The notes below the pieces were generated by a model. That model did not search any database. It had not been told where the DNA came from and worked only from the letters and a program-made list of their open reading frames with translations. 64,000 bases of DNA from Fusobacterium varium (GTDB lineage: Bacteria; Fusobacteriota; Fusobacteriia; Fusobacteriales; Fusobacteriaceae): NCBI GenBank assembly GCA_002356455.1, contig AP017968.1, positions 744,001 through 808,000 of the forward strand. Reading direction: 5' to 3'. Position 1 is the first letter of the stretch, and each line of letters begins with the position of its first letter. Both the position numbers and the translations under genes were made by a program. This document shows positions 22,580 to 45,805 of this stretch, piece after piece.

Positions 22580-25500
22580 ATGAGAAGAAAAATTTATCTT
22601 ACAGCAGCATATATTATAATTTCTTTAAATATTCTGGGAATGAGCAGTGTTCCCACGGGAAATATTGAAAACACCAGTGACAGAATACTAGGTGGAGCTG
22701 ATGAGATAGAGGTAGATCTTCTTAGTGATACAATTACTTCTCAAAGCGGTGTCAATGTGAAATATGGAGATTTAAAATTAAAAGTTTTTGACATGCAGAG
22801 AGATAAGGAAAAAAATAGAGCATACCTTAAAGGAAATATAATAACTCAAGTAGACCAGCCTACAGGAATTCTTAAGTTGGAATCAACTAATGGGGATGTA
22901 TCTTTAGATGGAAACCAAGGGGTTTTTTATAATAACTTTGGATATCTTGAGATAGGAAAAGTAACTGGTGGAGAAGCTCCAAATGACAAAATTTATTTTG
23001 GTGGAAAAGTATTTGAATATGAAAATGGAAATCTTTATATAAATAATGGTTGGCTGACAACAGACTATAATGTAGCTGAAACAGCTGATCCAAATCAAAC
23101 AGGATATCATTTTCTTTCTAAAGAAATAATAGTGGAACCTGATAAGCAGCTTACTTTAAAAGGAAGCGATTTATATTTAGGAGATAATGATGTTTTTCCT
23201 TTCAGTATTCCATGGTATAGAGTTAACATAAGACAAGATTCAGAAGTACCTTTGTTTCCAGAATGGGGAACAAAAGATTACTATGGATGGCAGACTTCAT
23301 GGGGGGTTCTTTATGGAGATAAGGATAGTAAATTTAAAGGAGGATTTGCTCCTAAGTTTGCTGACCAAATGGGATTGCTGATAGGAAGATGGGAAAACTG
23401 GTATAAAACAGATAAATTTGGTACAGCAAAACTAAATATAGATGATGCATTAATATGGTCAAAAACTGATAAAAAAGAAAAATATAGTGACCCTGTTGAT
23501 TATGAAGAAAAAAATAAAAGATATAGACTAAACTATACTCATGAATATAGTGGAGAGAAAGGAATTCTGCAATTTAGTGCTATCAACGGAACATATAATA
23601 TGATTCCCAAGTTAGAAGATATAATTACAGATTATGAAGGTAATGGAAGATTTTTAAATAATACAAGACCTAAACTGGACTCTACAATAAGTTTTTTCTC
23701 AATGAATTCAGATCTTAAAGAATTAGGACCAGATAAGGATATTACTTTAAAGACAAGATTAAAATTAACTGATGATAAAGAAGCTTATGCTCTCATGGTT
23801 TATGATGATATTGATGATATTGATTATGGAAGCAACATAGATAATGACCTTTATTCACAAATTGAATTATACAAAGATAATAATAGATACAGAGTTGGAG
23901 GTTACTATAATTATTTGTATGATATGGATCCAGGTTCAACTTTAAATGATACTCAGTCAAGGGCTGAAGATTTTGGATTTGAATTTTTTGAAAAGAAAAA
24001 CAATATAGGATTCAGCTATGATGAAAAGAATGGAGATAAATTCAGAAGATTAGGACTATGGGAAAGAGATCCAAATCTTGATTCTATGATTCAGTATAAC
24101 AGCCTTTTAGGAGGGAATTTTTATTATAAATATAACCCAAGTACAATAAGAGAATATTCTCAATATGACAGCAGAGATTTGAGAGTATCTTTTGGTGATT
24201 ATGATTTTTGGGGAAATTACAGAGTAAAAGCTGGGTACAATATAAATGAATATGAAAGAAAGCTTGATTTAATGGATGATCCTTTAAGAAAAAATGTTAT
24301 AAATAAAGAGTATAATTCTGTAACAAACAAAATAGAAGACAAAACATTTGGAACTAATAGAACAAATGAACGAGATAAAGAATACAATAGATTTGAAAAT
24401 ATAATATACAACGATTTCAGAGAAGAGAGAGCGTATGTAGATTTCTATAATGATACCACTAAGTTTACTTTTGCAACTGGACAGACAAAGGAAAAATTCT
24501 GGGATAGAGAAGGAATATATTATGAACCAGCTTTTTCAATTAATTCATACAGACAATATGTAAATGAATCTAAATTCTATGAGTTTGGGGCTGAAAGAAA
24601 TGAAATACCTCTTGGAGCTTTTGGACAATTAGCACTATTTGGTGGAGTAAGATATGATAAATATGATAAAGGATATAATCCATATACGAAACATTATGCA
24701 AGTGGTGAAGATTCGACTCTTAGAACACAGTTAAAACTTAATCATACAATACAGCTTTTTGATAATACAGATAATAAAGACAGAAGAATGGATTTTGCTT
24801 TAAGCAATGATTTGAGCCTTTTTTATCAAAGATATGATTATGATTCTGGTGATATTAAATTTGGTACTGCCTACAATGATATCAGAAAGAAAACTATGAG
24901 CTCTGAGGATATTAGATTAAAAAATAAAGATAATATTTATGAAATCAAAGATACAATTAATGCAATGATAGGAAATACAGAAACAGCGTATAACATTGAG
25001 TACAAGAGAAGAGAAAATCCTGCCGATACAAGTGAACTTAATGGACAAGCATTTAAAAATGATATCAATTTTAAAATTGATGACAAACAGTCATTAACAC
25101 TGAATTATGGACAGGACAGACAATATACAAGTGAAAATGAAAGAGACAGAAATTATAATGACTTAACTTTTAGAAATTATGGTGCAGTCTACAACTATGA
25201 AGGACATAGATTATCTTATCAAAATCAAGGTATAGATTCTAAGATATGGGACATGAAAAATGTTGATAACGCCAAAGAAAAAATCAGAGCAAATACATAT
25301 GCATATCAATACTCTTTTGGAGATAATAGATTAGGATTTGATTTCAGTCAAGGTACAGATGTAAGAAGAAATTATTCAATTGACCTTAAAGAAATAGATG
25401 TAGACAATAAAATTTATGGAATTTCATTTTTAGATGGTGGAGATGTAGAGAATTATTATAGAGTTACATATGAAGATTATAACCATAAAGAAGATACAGC

Positions 25501-26317
25501 AAAATATAGATTTTCAGATGGAAGAGTTAAGAATATTAATAACTCTGATGTATTGTCATTTACTTATGAATACAGAGATAAAAGATTTACAGATGAGGAA
25601 TTAAAGAAATATGCTGAACTTGAATTCAATAAAGATTCTAATCAGCTGACACAGGCAGAACTTTACAGAGTAAGAGATATCTTGAGAGACAGAGAAAGAA
25701 ATAGTGTAAATTTCAATCTTAACAGTATAATGTATGATAGATTTAATAGTCTTGGAGATTACAAACGTAACTTTAAGATACATCTTATGATGCAGAGAAA
25801 TGATGCAAGATATGATAAAACTGGAGATTTATGGGATTCTCTGGAAGAAGTAAAAGCAAGAATATTCTATTCTCAAAACAGAGTTGGAGTGGGATATGAA
25901 ATAGAGGAAAATTCGGGATGGAACAGTGGAAGCTGGGATAGATTGAATAGAGAGCATAAAGTAAGTCTGATGGCAAAAATTGGAAAACCAAGTGAAGGCT
26001 GGAATGTAAAAACCTATGCTAAATTCTATGAAAACTTTAAAGATACTTCTAATAAGAATAGAAGAAAAAGTTCACTTGATGGTTTAGGAGTAGAGATAGG
26101 TAAAGAGTTCGGATATTATGAATGGGCAGTAGCTTATGAGAGAGAATATGATCTAGGAACAAGAGATTATGAATGGAGAGTAGCTCTTCAATTTACATTA
26201 CTTACATTCCCAGACAAACCTATATTTGGTCTTGGAGCAGATACAGATGCCAAGAAAAAAACAAGTCCTCAAACTTACTTGTTTGATGGAATAAAACCAC
26301 AAGATATAGTAGATTAA
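22580..26317 (+). CDS. lptD: LptD-like LPS-assembly outer-membrane protein
   Basis: 1245 aa, much longer than E. coli LptD (784). Signal peptide of about 20 residues. The N-terminal periplasmic part has OstA-type features (ADEIEVDLLSDTITSQSGV, VKYGDLKLKV). The segment GDNDVFPFSIPWYRVN and the aromatic-rich stretch after it fit the LptD plug/barrel junction. The remaining ~1000 residues alternate like a large beta-barrel. Together with LptE (not seen here) it would put LPS in the outer leaflet. It is co-transcribed with thrS 28 nt downstream, an odd pairing. Extra length presumably lies in long extracellular loops (residues 300-1150 rich in Asp, Lys, Asn). Confidence 0.85.
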   Translation: MRRKIYLTAAYIIISLNILGMSSVPTGNIENTSDRILGGADEIEVDLLSDTITSQSGVNVKYGDLKLKVFDMQRDKEKNRAYLKGNIITQVDQPTGILKLESTNGDVSLDGNQGVFYNNFGYLEIGKVTGGEAPNDKIYFGGKVFEYENGNLYINNGWLTTDYNVAETADPNQTGYHFLSKEIIVEPDKQLTLKGSDLYLGDNDVFPFSIPWYRVNIRQDSEVPLFPEWGTKDYYGWQTSWGVLYGDKDSKFKGGFAPKFADQMGLLIGRWENWYKTDKFGTAKLNIDDALIWSKTDKKEKYSDPVDYEEKNKRYRLNYTHEYSGEKGILQFSAINGTYNMIPKLEDIITDYEGNGRFLNNTRPKLDSTISFFSMNSDLKELGPDKDITLKTRLKLTDDKEAYALMVYDDIDDIDYGSNIDNDLYSQIELYKDNNRYRVGGYYNYLYDMDPGSTLNDTQSRAEDFGFEFFEKKNNIGFSYDEKNGDKFRRLGLWERDPNLDSMIQYNSLLGGNFYYKYNPSTIREYSQYDSRDLRVSFGDYDFWGNYRVKAGYNINEYERKLDLMDDPLRKNVINKEYNSVTNKIEDKTFGTNRTNERDKEYNRFENIIYNDFREERAYVDFYNDTTKFTFATGQTKEKFWDREGIYYEPAFSINSYRQYVNESKFYEFGAERNEIPLGAFGQLALFGGVRYDKYDKGYNPYTKHYASGEDSTLRTQLKLNHTIQLFDNTDNKDRRMDFALSNDLSLFYQRYDYDSGDIKFGTAYNDIRKKTMSSEDIRLKNKDNIYEIKDTINAMIGNTETAYNIEYKRRENPADTSELNGQAFKNDINFKIDDKQSLTLNYGQDRQYTSENERDRNYNDLTFRNYGAVYNYEGHRLSYQNQGIDSKIWDMKNVDNAKEKIRANTYAYQYSFGDNRLGFDFSQGTDVRRNYSIDLKEIDVDNKIYGISFLDGGDVENYYRVTYEDYNHKEDTAKYRFSDGRVKNINNSDVLSFTYEYRDKRFTDEELKKYAELEFNKDSNQLTQAELYRVRDILRDRERNSVNFNLNSIMYDRFNSLGDYKRNFKIHLMMQRNDARYDKTGDLWDSLEEVKARIFYSQNRVGVGYEIEENSGWNSGSWDRLNREHKVSLMAKIGKPSEGWNVKTYAKFYENFKDTSNKNRRKSSLDGLGVEIGKEFGYYEWAVAYEREYDLGTRDYEWRVALQFTLLTFPDKPIFGLGADTDAKKKTSPQTYLFDGIKPQDIVD

Positions 26318-32020: not shown

Positions 32021-34708
32021 ATGAATAAAAAGAAAATCTATATAATTATTTTTGTAGTTATAATAATATTAGGTTACTTAAACTATTTTAAAGATGAAAA
32101 TGATCTTTCTGATATAAAAAAAGCTATAGAAACAACTAATGTTACTTATGATAGTGAAGATTATCATGTTGAAGCAGATAAACAAGTAGATTATGTAGAT
32201 GATAATGAAACAAACTTTGAAAAAGCAAAAGCATTAGTAAAGGATATGATAATAAGTGGAGATAATGTATTTATAGACAAAGTGAGAAATTTAGCATTGA
32301 AAAATAATATCCTTGGAATAAGTCCAAATGGATGGAAGTTTAATACAGAAGCAGCTCATTATGACAAACTAAAAGATGAAATAACATCTGATGCTGGAGT
32401 GTCAGCAGAGAATGCTGAAAAAAAGGTAAAAGTTTCTGGAAAGAATTTTATTACTGACAGTAAAATGAGTTATATAGAACTTAAAGATAATGTAGTTCTG
32501 GAAAATGAAAAAATAAAATTAAAAGGTGATATTGGTAGATACAGTGATGCCAGCAAGATAGTTACACTTTCAGGAAATATAATTATTGATGGGACAGACA
32601 GAGAAAATGCTGAAATATCTGGAAATTTTCTCAATTTAAAATATTCAGTAGACGATAAAATTCTTGAAGCTTGGGAACCTTATGATGTAACATATAATGG
32701 AGCAAAACTTTCAGCAGGAAATTTATGGTATCAAGACAGTACAGAAGCTTTTTTAATTACTAAAAATGTAATAATAGAAGCTAATGGATATAAAATATAT
32801 GTTGATAAGATACAAAGAGAGGCAAATAGTGATATAATTAAATTCTTTGGAAAAATAACTGGAAGCAATGGAATATATTCTTTTTCTGGTAAAGAAGCAG
32901 TTTATAATATAACTACTGGAGAGTTAACTTTTTATGGAGATGTAAAAATTACATCAACAAAAGGGGAGGAACTGACAGCAGATAAAATAGTATACAATAA
33001 TAATACTAAATTTATAACTGCATATGGAGAAAAAAGAGATGCAGTATATATTTCAGATAATGGAGAATTGAAAAGTAAAGAATTTAGGTACAACAATGAA
33101 ACAAAAGAGCTGTTTGCAGATAAAAAATATGATTTTAAAAGCCAAAAATATGATAGTGTTGGAGATAAATTTTATTTTAATGATTTAACAAAAGATGGGT
33201 ATATAGTAAATGGAACTATGTATGATAAAATTAAAAAACAAACTGCAAAAGGTAAAAGAATGGATTTTAATACTGAAACAAAAATATATATGGTAAAAGA
33301 AAACTCAGTGTTTGAAAATCAGGACTATAGATTGGAAAGTAATGATATAACATATAATGGAGTTACTGGAAAAGTAGAAACACCAGATAAGTATAAAGTT
33401 ATATCTTTAAAAAATGCTACATCTTTTACAGGAGTTGGAGCAGTATATGATGAAAATACAGGAGAATTAATCAGTAATGGGACAATAAATGCTTCTGGAA
33501 GAAATTTTATTGCCAGTGGAGAAAACCTTACATATAATAATAAAGATGGAGTAGGAGAACTTCAAAGTAAAATTTCTTTTACAAATACTGAAAATGGAAC
33601 AACAGTAACAGGAGATAAACTTTTATTTCAAAAAGATAATTATATGGAACTTATAGGTAATCTTGTAATAAATAGTGAAAAAATAGTAGCAAAATCATCA
33701 AGAGGAAAGTATAATTTAGAAGAAGAAAAAGTATACATTCCTGAAAAAATAGATTTTGAAAGCCATGATAAATTAACATCAGGAACTATGTCAAAGGGAG
33801 TATATGATGTAAAAGCTTCTGTATTTACTGGTGATAATTTTAAAGGTAAAAATAAAGAAAATGATATAAAAAGTGATAAAATGAAATATTATACAAATGA
33901 GGATAAGGTAGAATTTGGAAAAAATACTGTTATAGTGACTCCAGAAAGCAAATTAAGAGGAAACAAACTTGATTATAATCTTAATACTGAAGTAGTTGTT
34001 TCTCCTGAAAAATATACAATAGATTATGGAGATTTTACTATAGTTGGAAGTGAAGGAACATTTGATAATAAACAGGGATTGTTAAAAAGTACAAACGCAG
34101 ATATAACTTCTAAAGCTGGGGATAGATTCAAATCAGACAAAGCAGATGGAAATTTGAAAGAGATGAGAATAGATTTTATAGGAAATGCTAATGGACATAT
34201 GGTTCATCAAGGGAAACGTACAGATTTCACAGGAGATTTTGCTAGAGTATATTTTAAGAATGATGGTGGATATAAAGCGATAAGAAGTGAAATTAAAAAG
34301 AATGCAGTATTTATTCAAGAGGATAAAAAACTTCAATCTGATTATATTGAAGCAGATATAGAAAGAAATCTTATTTTCTCAAGAGATAATACAAAACTTA
34401 CAGTAACTGATGCTAAAAATGGAGATACTATTGTAACTTCCGATACTGCTGAAATAGATATTAACAGAGATATAGCTACTTTAGTAGGAAATGTTTATAT
34501 TGAAAATAAAAATCCAGAGCAAGGAATTACTATTATCACTGCTGAAAAAGGAATAATTAGACAAAAAACTGGTATACTTGATCTTATGGGAAATGTAAAG
34601 ATTGAAAATAAGGAATCTATAATAGAAGCAGATGAAGGAAGTTATAATATGAACACAAAAAAAATAAAAGCAAGAGGTCATGTATTTATAAACCATAAAA
34701 ATAATTAA
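32021..34708 (+). CDS. LptC/LptA-like giant LPS-transport bridge protein
   Basis: 895 aa. One N-terminal membrane anchor ([14 protein letters not shown], about 5-18) and no cleavage site, as in LptC (191 aa in E. coli). The rest is periplasmic and built from many degenerate OstA/LptA-type repeats with the pattern AD-x-x-x-YN-x-x-T-x-x-I-x-A-x-G-x-V-x-I. Clear examples are [28 protein letters not shown] and [16 protein letters not shown]. Directly followed by lptB. I infer one protein doing the jobs of LptC and several LptA units, a ready-made jellyroll bridge from inner to outer membrane. No separate lptA is seen. The family is certain from the repeats; the exact boundary between C-like and A-like parts is not. 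Confidence 0.82.
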
Positions 34709-34718
34709 GGAGGAGCTA

Positions 34719-35444
34719 ATGAGAAGTTTAGTAGCTCAGAATCTTTGCAAAAGCTATAAAAAGAGAACAGTAGTGGATAATGTCAGCCTTGAAGTAAATA
34801 AAGGAGAAATAGTAGGGCTTTTAGGTCCTAATGGAGCAGGGAAAACTACTACTTTCTATATGATAACAGGAATAATAAAACCTGAAAGTGGTAAAGTTTA
34901 TTGTGATAATGCTGATGTGACAACTTATCCTATGTTTAAAAGAGCTAATTTAGGAATAGGGTATCTAGCTCAAGAGCCATCTGTTTTCAGAAATCTTACA
35001 GTAGAAGAAAATATTGCGGCAGTTCTTGAAATGAAGGGAGTAGTTTCTAAAGAACAACAAGAGATAATAGAAAAGCTTATGGAAGAATTTAAACTTACTC
35101 ATGTAAGAAAATCTTTAGGGTATTCATTATCTGGTGGTGAAAGAAGAAGAATAGAAATAGCCAGAACAATAGCAAATAACCCAAGTTTTATACTGTTGGA
35201 TGAGCCTTTTGCTGGAGTTGACCCAATAGCAGTTGAAGATATACAGCAGATAATAAGATATTTGAGAAACAGAGGATTGGGAATACTGATAACGGACCAC
35301 AGTGTAAGAGAAACATTGCGTATTACAGAGAAAGCATATATAATGGCAAATGGGAAAGTTTTAATCAGTGGAACACCAGAAGAGATATCTAATGATGAAA
35401 CAGCAAGAAAAATTTATTTAGGTGAAAAATTTAAATTAGATTAA
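34719..35444 (+). CDS. lptB: LPS export ABC transporter ATPase LptB
   Basis: 241 aa, the LptB size. Walker [11 protein letters not shown]-loop with [14 protein letters not shown], signature [13 protein letters not shown], Walker [15 protein letters not shown] and switch [16 protein letters not shown] and ITDHSV are typical of LptB over other ATPases. It powers LPS extraction with LptF and LptG, whose genes are at 43640-45805 in the next operon. Starts 10 nt after the bridge-protein gene. Confidence 0.96.
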
Positions 35445-43639: not shown

Positions 43640-44716
43640 ATGAAAATAATAGAAAAATATATTTTAGAAGAGGTGAAAATGCCAATATTGTTTGGAATCT
43701 CTTTGTTTACATTTATTTTTCTCATAGATATAATAGTAGCTATGATGGAAAATATAATAGTTAAAGGGATATCAATTATTGATATAATGAGGATATTATC
43801 ATTTTATCTTCCACCTATTTTATCTCAGACTATTCCTATGGGAATATTTTTAGGGGTAATGCTGACATTTTCAAAATTTACAAGAACTAGTGAAGCAACA
43901 GCTATGAGTTCTATAGGTATGGATCTTAGAGAGATAGTAAAACCTATATTTATTCTGGCATGTGTCACAACACTTTTTATATTTTTTCTTCAAGAAAGTA
44001 TAATTCCAAGATCTTTTACTAAACTTCAGTATATAACTACTAAGATAGCTTATGAAAATCCTGTATTTCAATTAAAAGAAAAAACTTTTATAGATGAGGT
44101 TGATGAATATAATCTTTATATAGATAGAATAGAAGGAAAAGATAGAATTGCTCAGGGAGTACTTATATTTCAAAAAGACGAAGATGTAGCATTTCCTACT
44201 GTCTTGGTAGGGAAAGAAGCTTATTGGAAAGACTCTTCAATGGTAATAACAGACTCAAAATTTTATGATTTTGATAAAGATGGAAAAGAAAAGTTAAGAG
44301 GAGAATTTGATGATAAAAGGGTTCCTCTTACTGCTTATTTTGATGGTATAGATATCAAAGTGAAGGATATAGAAGCTATGAGTATAAGTATGCTTATTAA
44401 AGAGATGAAAGAGCTTCCTAAAAATGAAAAAATACCATATAAAGTAGAAATAAATAGAAAATTGGCTCTGCCATTATCTACAATAATGCTTTCTCTGCTT
44501 GGGGTATTTATTTCAATAGGACATCACAGAAGTGGAAAGGGAGCTAATTTTGCTTTAAGTCTGGCAGTGATATTTTCATATATAACATTTCTGAACATAG
44601 GAATGGTTATGGCTAACAGAGGTAAAATTCCTCCATTCATAGGAGTATGGACACCAAATATAATTTTATTTTTAGTGACTTTTTATTTCTATAAGAAAAA
44701 ATCTAGGGGGATATAA
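43640..44716 (+). CDS. lptF: LPS export permease, YjgP/YjgQ family (LptF position)
   Basis: 358 aa, three membrane segments at each end around a periplasmic beta-jellyroll (about 130-250). YILEEVKMPILFG, IPMGIFLGVMLTFSKFTRTSEATAMSSIGMD (core TRTSEATAMSSIG) and the C-terminal LPLSTIMLSLLGVFISIG are family marks. Forms the LptB2FG transporter. I assign LptF over LptG by gene order, so the individual letter is tentative. Confidence 0.88.
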   Translation: MKIIEKYILEEVKMPILFGISLFTFIFLIDIIVAMMENIIVKGISIIDIMRILSFYLPPILSQTIPMGIFLGVMLTFSKFTRTSEATAMSSIGMDLREIVKPIFILACVTTLFIFFLQESIIPRSFTKLQYITTKIAYENPVFQLKEKTFIDEVDEYNLYIDRIEGKDRIAQGVLIFQKDEDVAFPTVLVGKEAYWKDSSMVITDSKFYDFDKDGKEKLRGEFDDKRVPLTAYFDGIDIKVKDIEAMSISMLIKEMKELPKNEKIPYKVEINRKLALPLSTIMLSLLGVFISIGHHRSGKGANFALSLAVIFSYITFLNIGMVMANRGKIPPFIGVWTPNIILFLVTFYFYKKKSRGI

Positions 44717-45805
44717 ATGAAAATAAAAATAATAGACAGATATATAAGTAAAAATTTTATAAAATCATTTTTCCTTAGTTTAATAGCTTTTGTAGGAATA
44801 TTTTTAGTAAGTCAATTATTCAAAGTCATAAGATATGTAAGTGATGGAAGATTTTCAGCAGATGAGTCAATAATTTATATACTTACGATGATACCAAAGA
44901 TATTGATAGATGTAGCACCATTAGCAGTGCTTTTAGGATCATTGATGACAGTGAGTTCCATGGCTTCAAATCTTGAAGTGATATCATTGAAAACAGCTGG
45001 AATAAGCTTTAAAAGAATAGTACTTTTTCCTATCCTTATTTCAGCAGTAATAGCTGTAATAGTTTTTTATATAAATGATAGCCTTTATCCCTATTCAATA
45101 AGAAAAAATAGGGAGATAAAAGATGGTGAAAGAGCAAAAAGAGAGATGCCAGCAGAAAAAAGAAATGCTTTTTTACGAGGAGAAAATTCTAACTATGTTT
45201 ATCTTATGGGAAAAATAAATAGAGAAACTGGTTTTGGTGAAAATATAGAGATAGTTGATTTAAATGAAGAATTTAATAAAGTTAAAAGAATAATTACTGC
45301 AAAAGAAGGAAGATATAATTTTACAAAAAAGGTATGGGTATTGAAAGATGCTAATATTTATAATGGAGAAAAATTAGAAAAAGCAAAAGAAGTAAAGATT
45401 TTTACAGAAGATAAATATGATGATGAACCAGATAAATTTATAACGAAGAGTGTAGAACCTAAAACACTTACAATAAAAGAATTGAAAAAATCTGTAAGAG
45501 AAATAAAGAGTATAGGTGGAGATACAAGAGAACTTCTTGTTGAAATTGGGAATAGATATTCTTTTCCATTTTCAAGCTTTATAATTTCGTTTTTAGGGCT
45601 TTCACTTGGAAGCAGATATGTAAGAGGAGCTTCTGCAATAAGTATGGCATTATCTGTGGCACTAGGATATGGATATTATATAGTACAGGCCTCTTTTGAA
45701 GCCTTAAGTATAAATGGATTTTTAAATCCATTTGTTAGCGGATGGATTCCTAATATAATTTTTTTAGGAATAGGGATATATTTTATGTATAGAGCAGAAT
45801 ATTAA
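44717..45805 (+). CDS. lptG: LPS export permease, YjgP/YjgQ family (LptG position)
   Basis: 362 aa with the same layout as the preceding protein. VAPLAVLLGSLMTVSSMA and NLEVISLKTAGIS correspond to the coupling region, and the C-terminal half holds the last three membrane segments (SFPFSSFIISFLGLSLG). Its start is immediately after the lptF stop, with the ribosome-binding site AGGGGG inside lptF. Works with LptB (34719) and the LptC/A-like bridge. Confidence 0.88.
   Translation: MKIKIIDRYISKNFIKSFFLSLIAFVGIFLVSQLFKVIRYVSDGRFSADESIIYILTMIPKILIDVAPLAVLLGSLMTVSSMASNLEVISLKTAGISFKRIVLFPILISAVIAVIVFYINDSLYPYSIRKNREIKDGERAKREMPAEKRNAFLRGENSNYVYLMGKINRETGFGENIEIVDLNEEFNKVKRIITAKEGRYNFTKKVWVLKDANIYNGEKLEKAKEVKIFTEDKYDDEPDKFITKSVEPKTLTIKELKKSVREIKSIGGDTRELLVEIGNRYSFPFSSFIISFLGLSLGSRYVRGASAISMALSVALGYGYYIVQASFEALSINGFLNPFVSGWIPNIIFLGIGIYFMYRAEY

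Follow-up and report, generated by a model that had tools for sequence, protein, structure and literature searches.

A one-piece bridge gene upstream of lptB

The window, by which we mean the whole 64,000-nucleotide stretch of DNA analyzed here, carries at positions 32021 to 34708 of the forward strand a single open reading frame (ORF) for an 895-amino-acid protein. Based on the ORF itself, its Pfam and NCBIfam matches, a predicted model, and homologues throughout the phylum, it is described here as a one-piece LptC-LptA bridge gene. The ORF begins 2 nt past mutS and is followed by lptB, encoding the LPS exporter ATPase (34719 to 35444, forward strand; TIGR04406, 373 bits against a cut-off of 240), with a gap of 10 nt between the bridge end at 34708 and the lptB start at 34719. 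Further downstream lie alaS, ruvX, secD, and secF; these neighbors, like mutS, are named by sequence appearance. Two LptF/LptG-family permease genes are also present on the forward strand, at 43640 to 44716 (PF03739, E 2.0e-77) and 44717 to 45805 (PF03739, E 3.5e-78).

A 1,245-amino-acid outer membrane protein, the presumed partner of the bridge, is encoded at 22580 to 26317 of the same strand. No match to the LptD barrel (PF04453) was obtained in the complete genome at E<=10, and a profile of this protein family matched no LptD chain among PDB sequences. Because neither model nor structure matches, we call the gene LptD-like only, a presumed identity that rests on sequence appearance, co-occurrence, and neighborhood. 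The protein is missed by PF04453 and by the PDB sequences, though its family co-occurs with LptF/G in the same genomes.

The gene content given in a preliminary description of this DNA, with lptB 10 nt downstream of the bridge and with lptF and lptG in the window, is thus borne out, LptD being present as the LptD-like gene. The bridge ORF is not a product of chance, since 73 such intact ORFs, counting the one in the window, were read in the phylum. An LptF-LptG fusion, considered on account of an apparent shared open frame of about 720 amino acids, was rejected, as a stop separates the two ORFs. The same open-frame check that exposed this false fusion upheld both the fusobacterial bridges and the Bdellovibrionota fusions described below.

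The bridge is predicted to form a continuous jellyroll with LptC-like and LptA-like ends

AlphaFold, supplied with a 46-sequence alignment, predicted the bridge with a mean pLDDT of 88, as a helix at residues 3 to 22 and strands only from residue 35 to residue 892. The strands make up an uninterrupted β-taco/jellyroll, with 57 bent strands after pieces split at the kink are merged. The continuous jellyroll supposed in the preliminary description is therefore what the model contains, all beta from 35 to 892. The pTM is only 0.55, so that the overall shape (straight, bent, or supercoiled) is uncertain.

The helix (32027 to 32086, forward strand, as are the parts that follow) is a single N-terminal membrane helix of the LptC anchor type, as judged from DSSP of the model and from the match of a half-length homologue to LptC. 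It precedes an LptC-like module at residues 33 to 167 (32117 to 32521), which superposes on LptC of the LptBFGC complex (6mit_C) with a Z score of 15.1 and an rmsd of 2.3 Å over 133 residues (VIA-align). The central taco, residues 168 to 765 (32522 to 34315), is continuous in its model strands and is the part shortened in half-length homologues. At the C terminus, residues 766 to 894 (34316 to 34702) form an LptA-like module, presumed to be the LptD-docking end, which VIA-align superposes on LptH (4uu4; Z score of 14.5, 1.8 Å over 124 residues) and on LptA (2r1a_C; Z score of 14.4, 1.6 Å over 123 residues). Because LptA and LptC have a common fold, the assignment of the N- and C-terminal modules amounts to a ranking of best structure matches.

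The C-terminal module accounts for 8 of the 57 strands, from which the modeled bridge would be about seven LptA-equivalents long, one of them LptC-like. Strand-count arithmetic (0.47 to 0.48 nm per strand, with an unbent sheet assumed) gives a contour of about 27 nm. Conservation is higher at both ends than in the middle, with relative entropies of 2.24 for residues 35 to 167, the most conserved part, 1.87 for residues 766 to 895, and 1.73 for residues 168 to 765 (Mann-Whitney P values of 1e-9 for the N-terminal and 0.002 for the C-terminal end). Averaged over the alignment, hydrophobicity alternates along the strands, with a lag-2 autocorrelation that was reached in 0 of 1,000 shuffles and is positive in each part of the bridge (z of 1.8 to 3.0). 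This is the pattern required of a sheet with two faces and a groove for lipid. A cruder test of strand alternation on the single sequence yielded nothing (observed, 0.230; shuffled, 0.242).

A probable single-polypeptide replacement for LptC and LptA

In Pfam, the LptC model (PF06835) matched the bridge in seven stretches with 92.1 bits, against a cut-off of 21, and the LptD_N/LptA model (PF03968) in six stretches with 65.4 bits, against a cut-off of 20.4. Together with the ORF and the predicted fold, these matches uphold the earlier description of one 895-amino-acid chain with an N-terminal anchor and OstA/LptA-type sequence along its length. Among NCBIfam equivalogs, LptC (TIGR04409) scored 123.5 bits, with a cut-off of 38, and LptA (TIGR03002) scored 59.4, below its cut-off of 71.7. 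A profile of 46 bridge homologues, compared by sequence with solved structures, matched LptA at 7e-9, LptD at 0.004, and LptC weakly at 0.06.

Like LptC, the protein has one N-terminal membrane anchor (helix 3 to 22), after which taco strands start at residue 35. However, one taco module and about 190 amino acids are expected of LptC, and because the chain has 895 amino acids and about 57 bent strands, it is more than a simple LptC. LptA, in turn, is a free soluble subunit able to oligomerize, whereas the LptA-like module here ends a membrane-anchored chain. The protein is therefore classed as an LptC-LptA fusion and not as LptA. Pfam matches up to E 10 included no AsmA or TamB model, as an AsmA/TamB-type (DUF490) identity would lead one to look for. 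SnoaL, Pcf11_C, and SLIDE matches all fell below cut-off and, like the MORN/junctophilin fold matches to the bridge models, were taken as generic hairpin-sheet similarity.

The absence of a separate lptA from the window, remarked on in the preliminary description, extends to the complete genome (G000; 4,122,841 bp in 3 contigs). Searches with PF03968 and PF06835 at E<=10 found no matches outside the bridge ORF, and the 46-homologue bridge profile at E<=1 detected no ORF other than the bridge of the window; the suggested check for lptA or lptC elsewhere in the genome thus came back empty with all three profiles. That the protein might instead be an over-long LptC, with a separate and very divergent LptA completing the bridge to LptD, would agree with the NCBI equivalog models, of which the LptC model names the protein and the LptA model stays below its cut-off. 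Moreover, PF03968 misses the LptD-like N terminus in this very genome, an imperfect sensitivity that a very divergent LptA could escape. Against this, the C-terminal module fits LptA-type structures at 1.6 to 1.8 Å and shows higher conservation than the central taco. No second OstA protein turned up in this genome with any of the three profiles, nor in the half-length species with the bridge profile, and the contour of about 27 nm already exceeds a 21-nm periplasm (PMC5575297). We consider an over-long LptC with a hidden LptA to be very unlikely. That one polypeptide replaces both LptC and LptA is well supported in silico.

The bridge co-occurs with the other Lpt genes across Fusobacteriota

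Of 98 Fusobacteriota genomes, 89 gave long OstA frames with PF03968 or the bridge profile; for G045 and G046, both counted here, no bridge ORF was read. These genome surveys are profile searches; the lengths relied upon were read from actual ORFs, 73 of which were intact and ranged from 430 to 1,093 amino acids. lptB comes next after the bridge in 60 of the 73 loci, at a spacing of −20 to 149 nt (median, 10 nt). LptF/G and the LptD-like family were present in the same 89 OstA-positive genomes and missing from the same nine.

The nine genomes without the bridge, LptF/G, the LptD-like family, and LpxC (G064, G082, G083, and G091 to G096) apparently represent a loss of LPS and its export. Because they all belong to one Leptotrichiaceae-like family (f4), this may have been a single event. 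Overall, LpxC agreed with the Lpt set in 96 of 98 genomes.

The cargo of the bridge might in principle be an amphiphile other than LPS, such as a different glycolipid or a phospholipid, as in the spirochetes Treponema pallidum and Borrelia, which keep Lpt sets without LPS (PMC8407342, PMC10353723). Two reduced genomes, G001 (0.8 Mb, 91% complete) and G067 (1.2 Mb, 88% complete), fit such a reading in that they retain the bridge along with the LptF/G and LptD-like genes and gave no match to LpxC; these are either incomplete assemblies or carriers of an Lpt system with another cargo. LpxC is, however, present in the genome of the window (E 1e-96). Altogether it was found in 87 of the 89 Lpt-positive genomes and in none of the nine negatives. 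For the family at large, a cargo other than LPS is the least probable of the explanations considered here, and LPS is the cargo we favor, although G001 and G067 mean that it may not always be LPS.

Two loci depart from the usual arrangement. In one genome, the bridge frame is split into 136 and 752 amino acids (L083:4668-7366) by a frameshift or a sequencing error, and the two congeners have an intact 899-amino-acid bridge. The class-level outgroup G097 (L123, L124, and L125) carries three genes of the LptD-like kind, a pair of intact bridge-like genes, and an additional bridge-like gene that is probably frame-shifted. Its 906-amino-acid bridge gene adjoins a 1,149-amino-acid LptD-like gene, an adjacency that suggests cognate pairs.

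Proposed path of LPS along the bridge

Our preferred reading, to which we give a probability of about 0.88, is that this one chain makes up the entire periplasmic portion of the fusobacterial LPS exporter, consisting of LptC and about six covalent LptA equivalents. It draws on the ORF, homology, the predicted continuous fold with LptC- and LptA-like ends, the lack of detectable separate copies, and the shared gene distribution; from these we infer LPS binding, the partners for docking, and the transport direction. The N-terminal helix and first taco module would act as LptC, sitting with LptB2FG in the inner membrane, as suggested by co-occurrence and by the neighboring genes, and this end would take LPS from LptF. 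The approximately six LptA-equivalents would form one V-shaped β sheet with a hydrophobic groove along which lipid A would cross the periplasm. The last module would serve as the terminal LptA and dock head-to-tail with the taco at the N terminus of the LptD-like protein. In E. coli, an ATPase-driven "PEZ" mechanism operates (PMC6164715); here, ATP hydrolysis by LptB would likewise push LPS along the bridge, without LptC-LptA or LptA-LptA joints. Because those joints are covalent, the bridge could not be shortened by subunit loss, and only the docking at LptF and at LptD could be made or broken.

Bridge length varies between genera

Inside genera, bridge length is nearly constant. It is 893 to 896 amino acids within the genus of the window, 918 in 10 of 10 intact bridges read in a Cetobacterium-like genus (g3), and 782 in five of one Leptotrichiaceae genus. 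The variation across the phylum, from 430 to 1,093 amino acids, is due partly to C-terminal Ig-like domains and for the rest to the taco itself. An aBig_2 domain (PF20578), an atrophied bacterial Ig domain, lies C-terminal to the taco in L112, L104, and L120 (Leptotrichiaceae) and in L082 and L086; it accounts for the bridges of 1,074 and 1,093 amino acids and sits at the end expected to meet LptD.

Half-length bridges of 430 to 468 amino acids were found in three species of two genera, with different internal deletions and with both ends kept. Model positions 258 to 698 are missing from the 468-amino-acid bridges of G031 and G034 (L075 and L077), and positions 162 to 630 from the 430-amino-acid bridge of G048 (L089). 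The bridge profile found no second OstA ORF in the half-length species. The 468-amino-acid bridge was modeled with a pLDDT of 89 and a pTM of 0.78 as 27 bent strands; confidence is low in just two places, the anchor linker and the junction at 257 to 264. The periplasmic part of a half-length bridge is predicted to be about 13 nm long. LptC matches its N-terminal module and LptA its C-terminal one, the same polarity as in the full-length protein, and in the half-length homologue, the helix together with the first taco aligns to residues 9 to 175 of V. cholerae LptC (6mjp_C). Mis-assembly or collapsed repeats behind the 468-amino-acid forms are unlikely, since the endpoints are identical in two species whose genomes were assembled separately, the repeats have diverged from one another, and good folds were predicted in both models.

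These lengths bear on the proposal, made in the preliminary description, that a covalent bridge of fixed length sets the width of the periplasm. Such a ruler, setting or matching the distance between the membranes, would be compatible with the preferred reading and would agree with the near-constant length inside genera (893 to 896, 918, and 782 amino acids). However, length runs from 430 to 1,093 amino acids across the phylum, and the half-length forms of the two genera differ in their deletion endpoints and have no longer LptD to offset them, the LptD-like frames being 1,169 to 1,175 amino acids compared with 1,200 to 1,201 in full-length congeners. For E. coli, the periplasm width is given as 21 nm and the length of an assembly containing a single LptC and a single LptA as about 16 nm (PMC5575297). 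The predicted contour of about 27 nm exceeds that width even before the LptF/G and LptD domains are added. On the E. coli scale, by analogy, half the length would already be enough and the full length would be long, which leaves the ruler idea unsupported. Either the fusobacterial periplasm is wide, or the bridge is bent, or its length has slack; our literature search found no value for the fusobacterial periplasm width. Of the preliminary interpretation, a single chain replacing LptC and LptA stands, given the absence of separate copies, the end modules, and the shared distribution, and a fixed length that sets periplasm width is not supported. We regard a ruler as unlikely, and sequence alone would fit a ruler as well as an adapted spacer, cause as well as effect.

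Alternatively, and only slightly less doubtfully, the bridge may be a phylum-wide joint-free LPS conduit whose length is reset by in-register internal deletion of strands, so that length and periplasm width coevolve. The strand counts, 57 in the species of the window versus 27 in another genus, differ by an even number. If coevolution holds, half-length species would have a markedly narrower periplasm.

Comparison with known Lpt systems

The fusobacterial system shares with LptB2FGCADE of E. coli, Vibrio, and Enterobacter the β-taco fold, the order from inner to outer membrane, the lptB neighbor, and the LptC anchor type, and its terminal modules superpose on theirs at 1.6 to 2.3 Å. Those systems, in contrast, use a separate LptC of about 190 amino acids and a self-associating LptA of about 185, where fusobacteria have about seven jointless modules. 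Because LptA self-associates variably, the number of LptA subunits and the permanent or transient nature of the bridge are open questions in E. coli (PMC5575297, PMC6164715). In the fusobacterial bridge, stoichiometry is fixed by one gene. Thanatin-type compounds target the joints of the Lpt bridge, and since these joints are covalent in fusobacteria, such drugs may act differently on them. We found no paper describing the fusobacterial bridge protein; the 2015 Lpt review (Putker et al.) lay outside the search, and earlier notice is possible.

A related arrangement is found in Bdellovibrionota, where an anchor, an LptC domain, and then an LptA domain are likewise encoded by one ORF directly upstream of lptB. 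Such fusion ORFs have 326 to 331 amino acids (L161:4678-5658 and L217:5514-6506 by Pfam; L307 to L309 by reading frame and position), and in most of 59 Bdellovibrionota genomes LptC is matched within a frame of about 300 to 440 amino acids, so that a short LptC-LptA fusion is apparently the rule in this phylum. No paper on it was recovered. Unlike the fusobacterial bridge with its roughly six LptA equivalents, the fusion of about 330 amino acids has one LptC and one LptA module. Bacteroidota OstA-like proteins (PF13100, OstA_2) also join several LptA-type modules covalently (476 amino acids at L173; frames of 481 to 568), but their LptC is separate, at about 190 to 225 amino acids (194 at L173). 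The Negativicutes and Halanaerobiales, also diderm lineages with OstA-domain LptA/LptC near LptB, have a pair of proteins of about 200 amino acids each and not one long chain (PMC5007114).

A degenerate lptB pattern yielded 80 loci from many phyla, of which 30 genomes were checked, a sample biased to AT-rich and mid-GC genomes that leaves out Deinococcota and other GC-rich phyla. In these 30 genomes, LptC usually occupies a separate frame of about 150 to 240 amino acids, and LptA-like frames have 163 to 440, or 481 to 568 in Bacteroidota. LptC-LptA fusion therefore occurs in at least two phyla and is not unique to fusobacteria, and within the sample the multi-LptA length seems particular to Fusobacteriota. 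The natural series of short (Bdellovibrionota, about 330 amino acids), half-length (430 to 468), and full-length (about 900) bridges allows bridge length to be compared directly with periplasm width.
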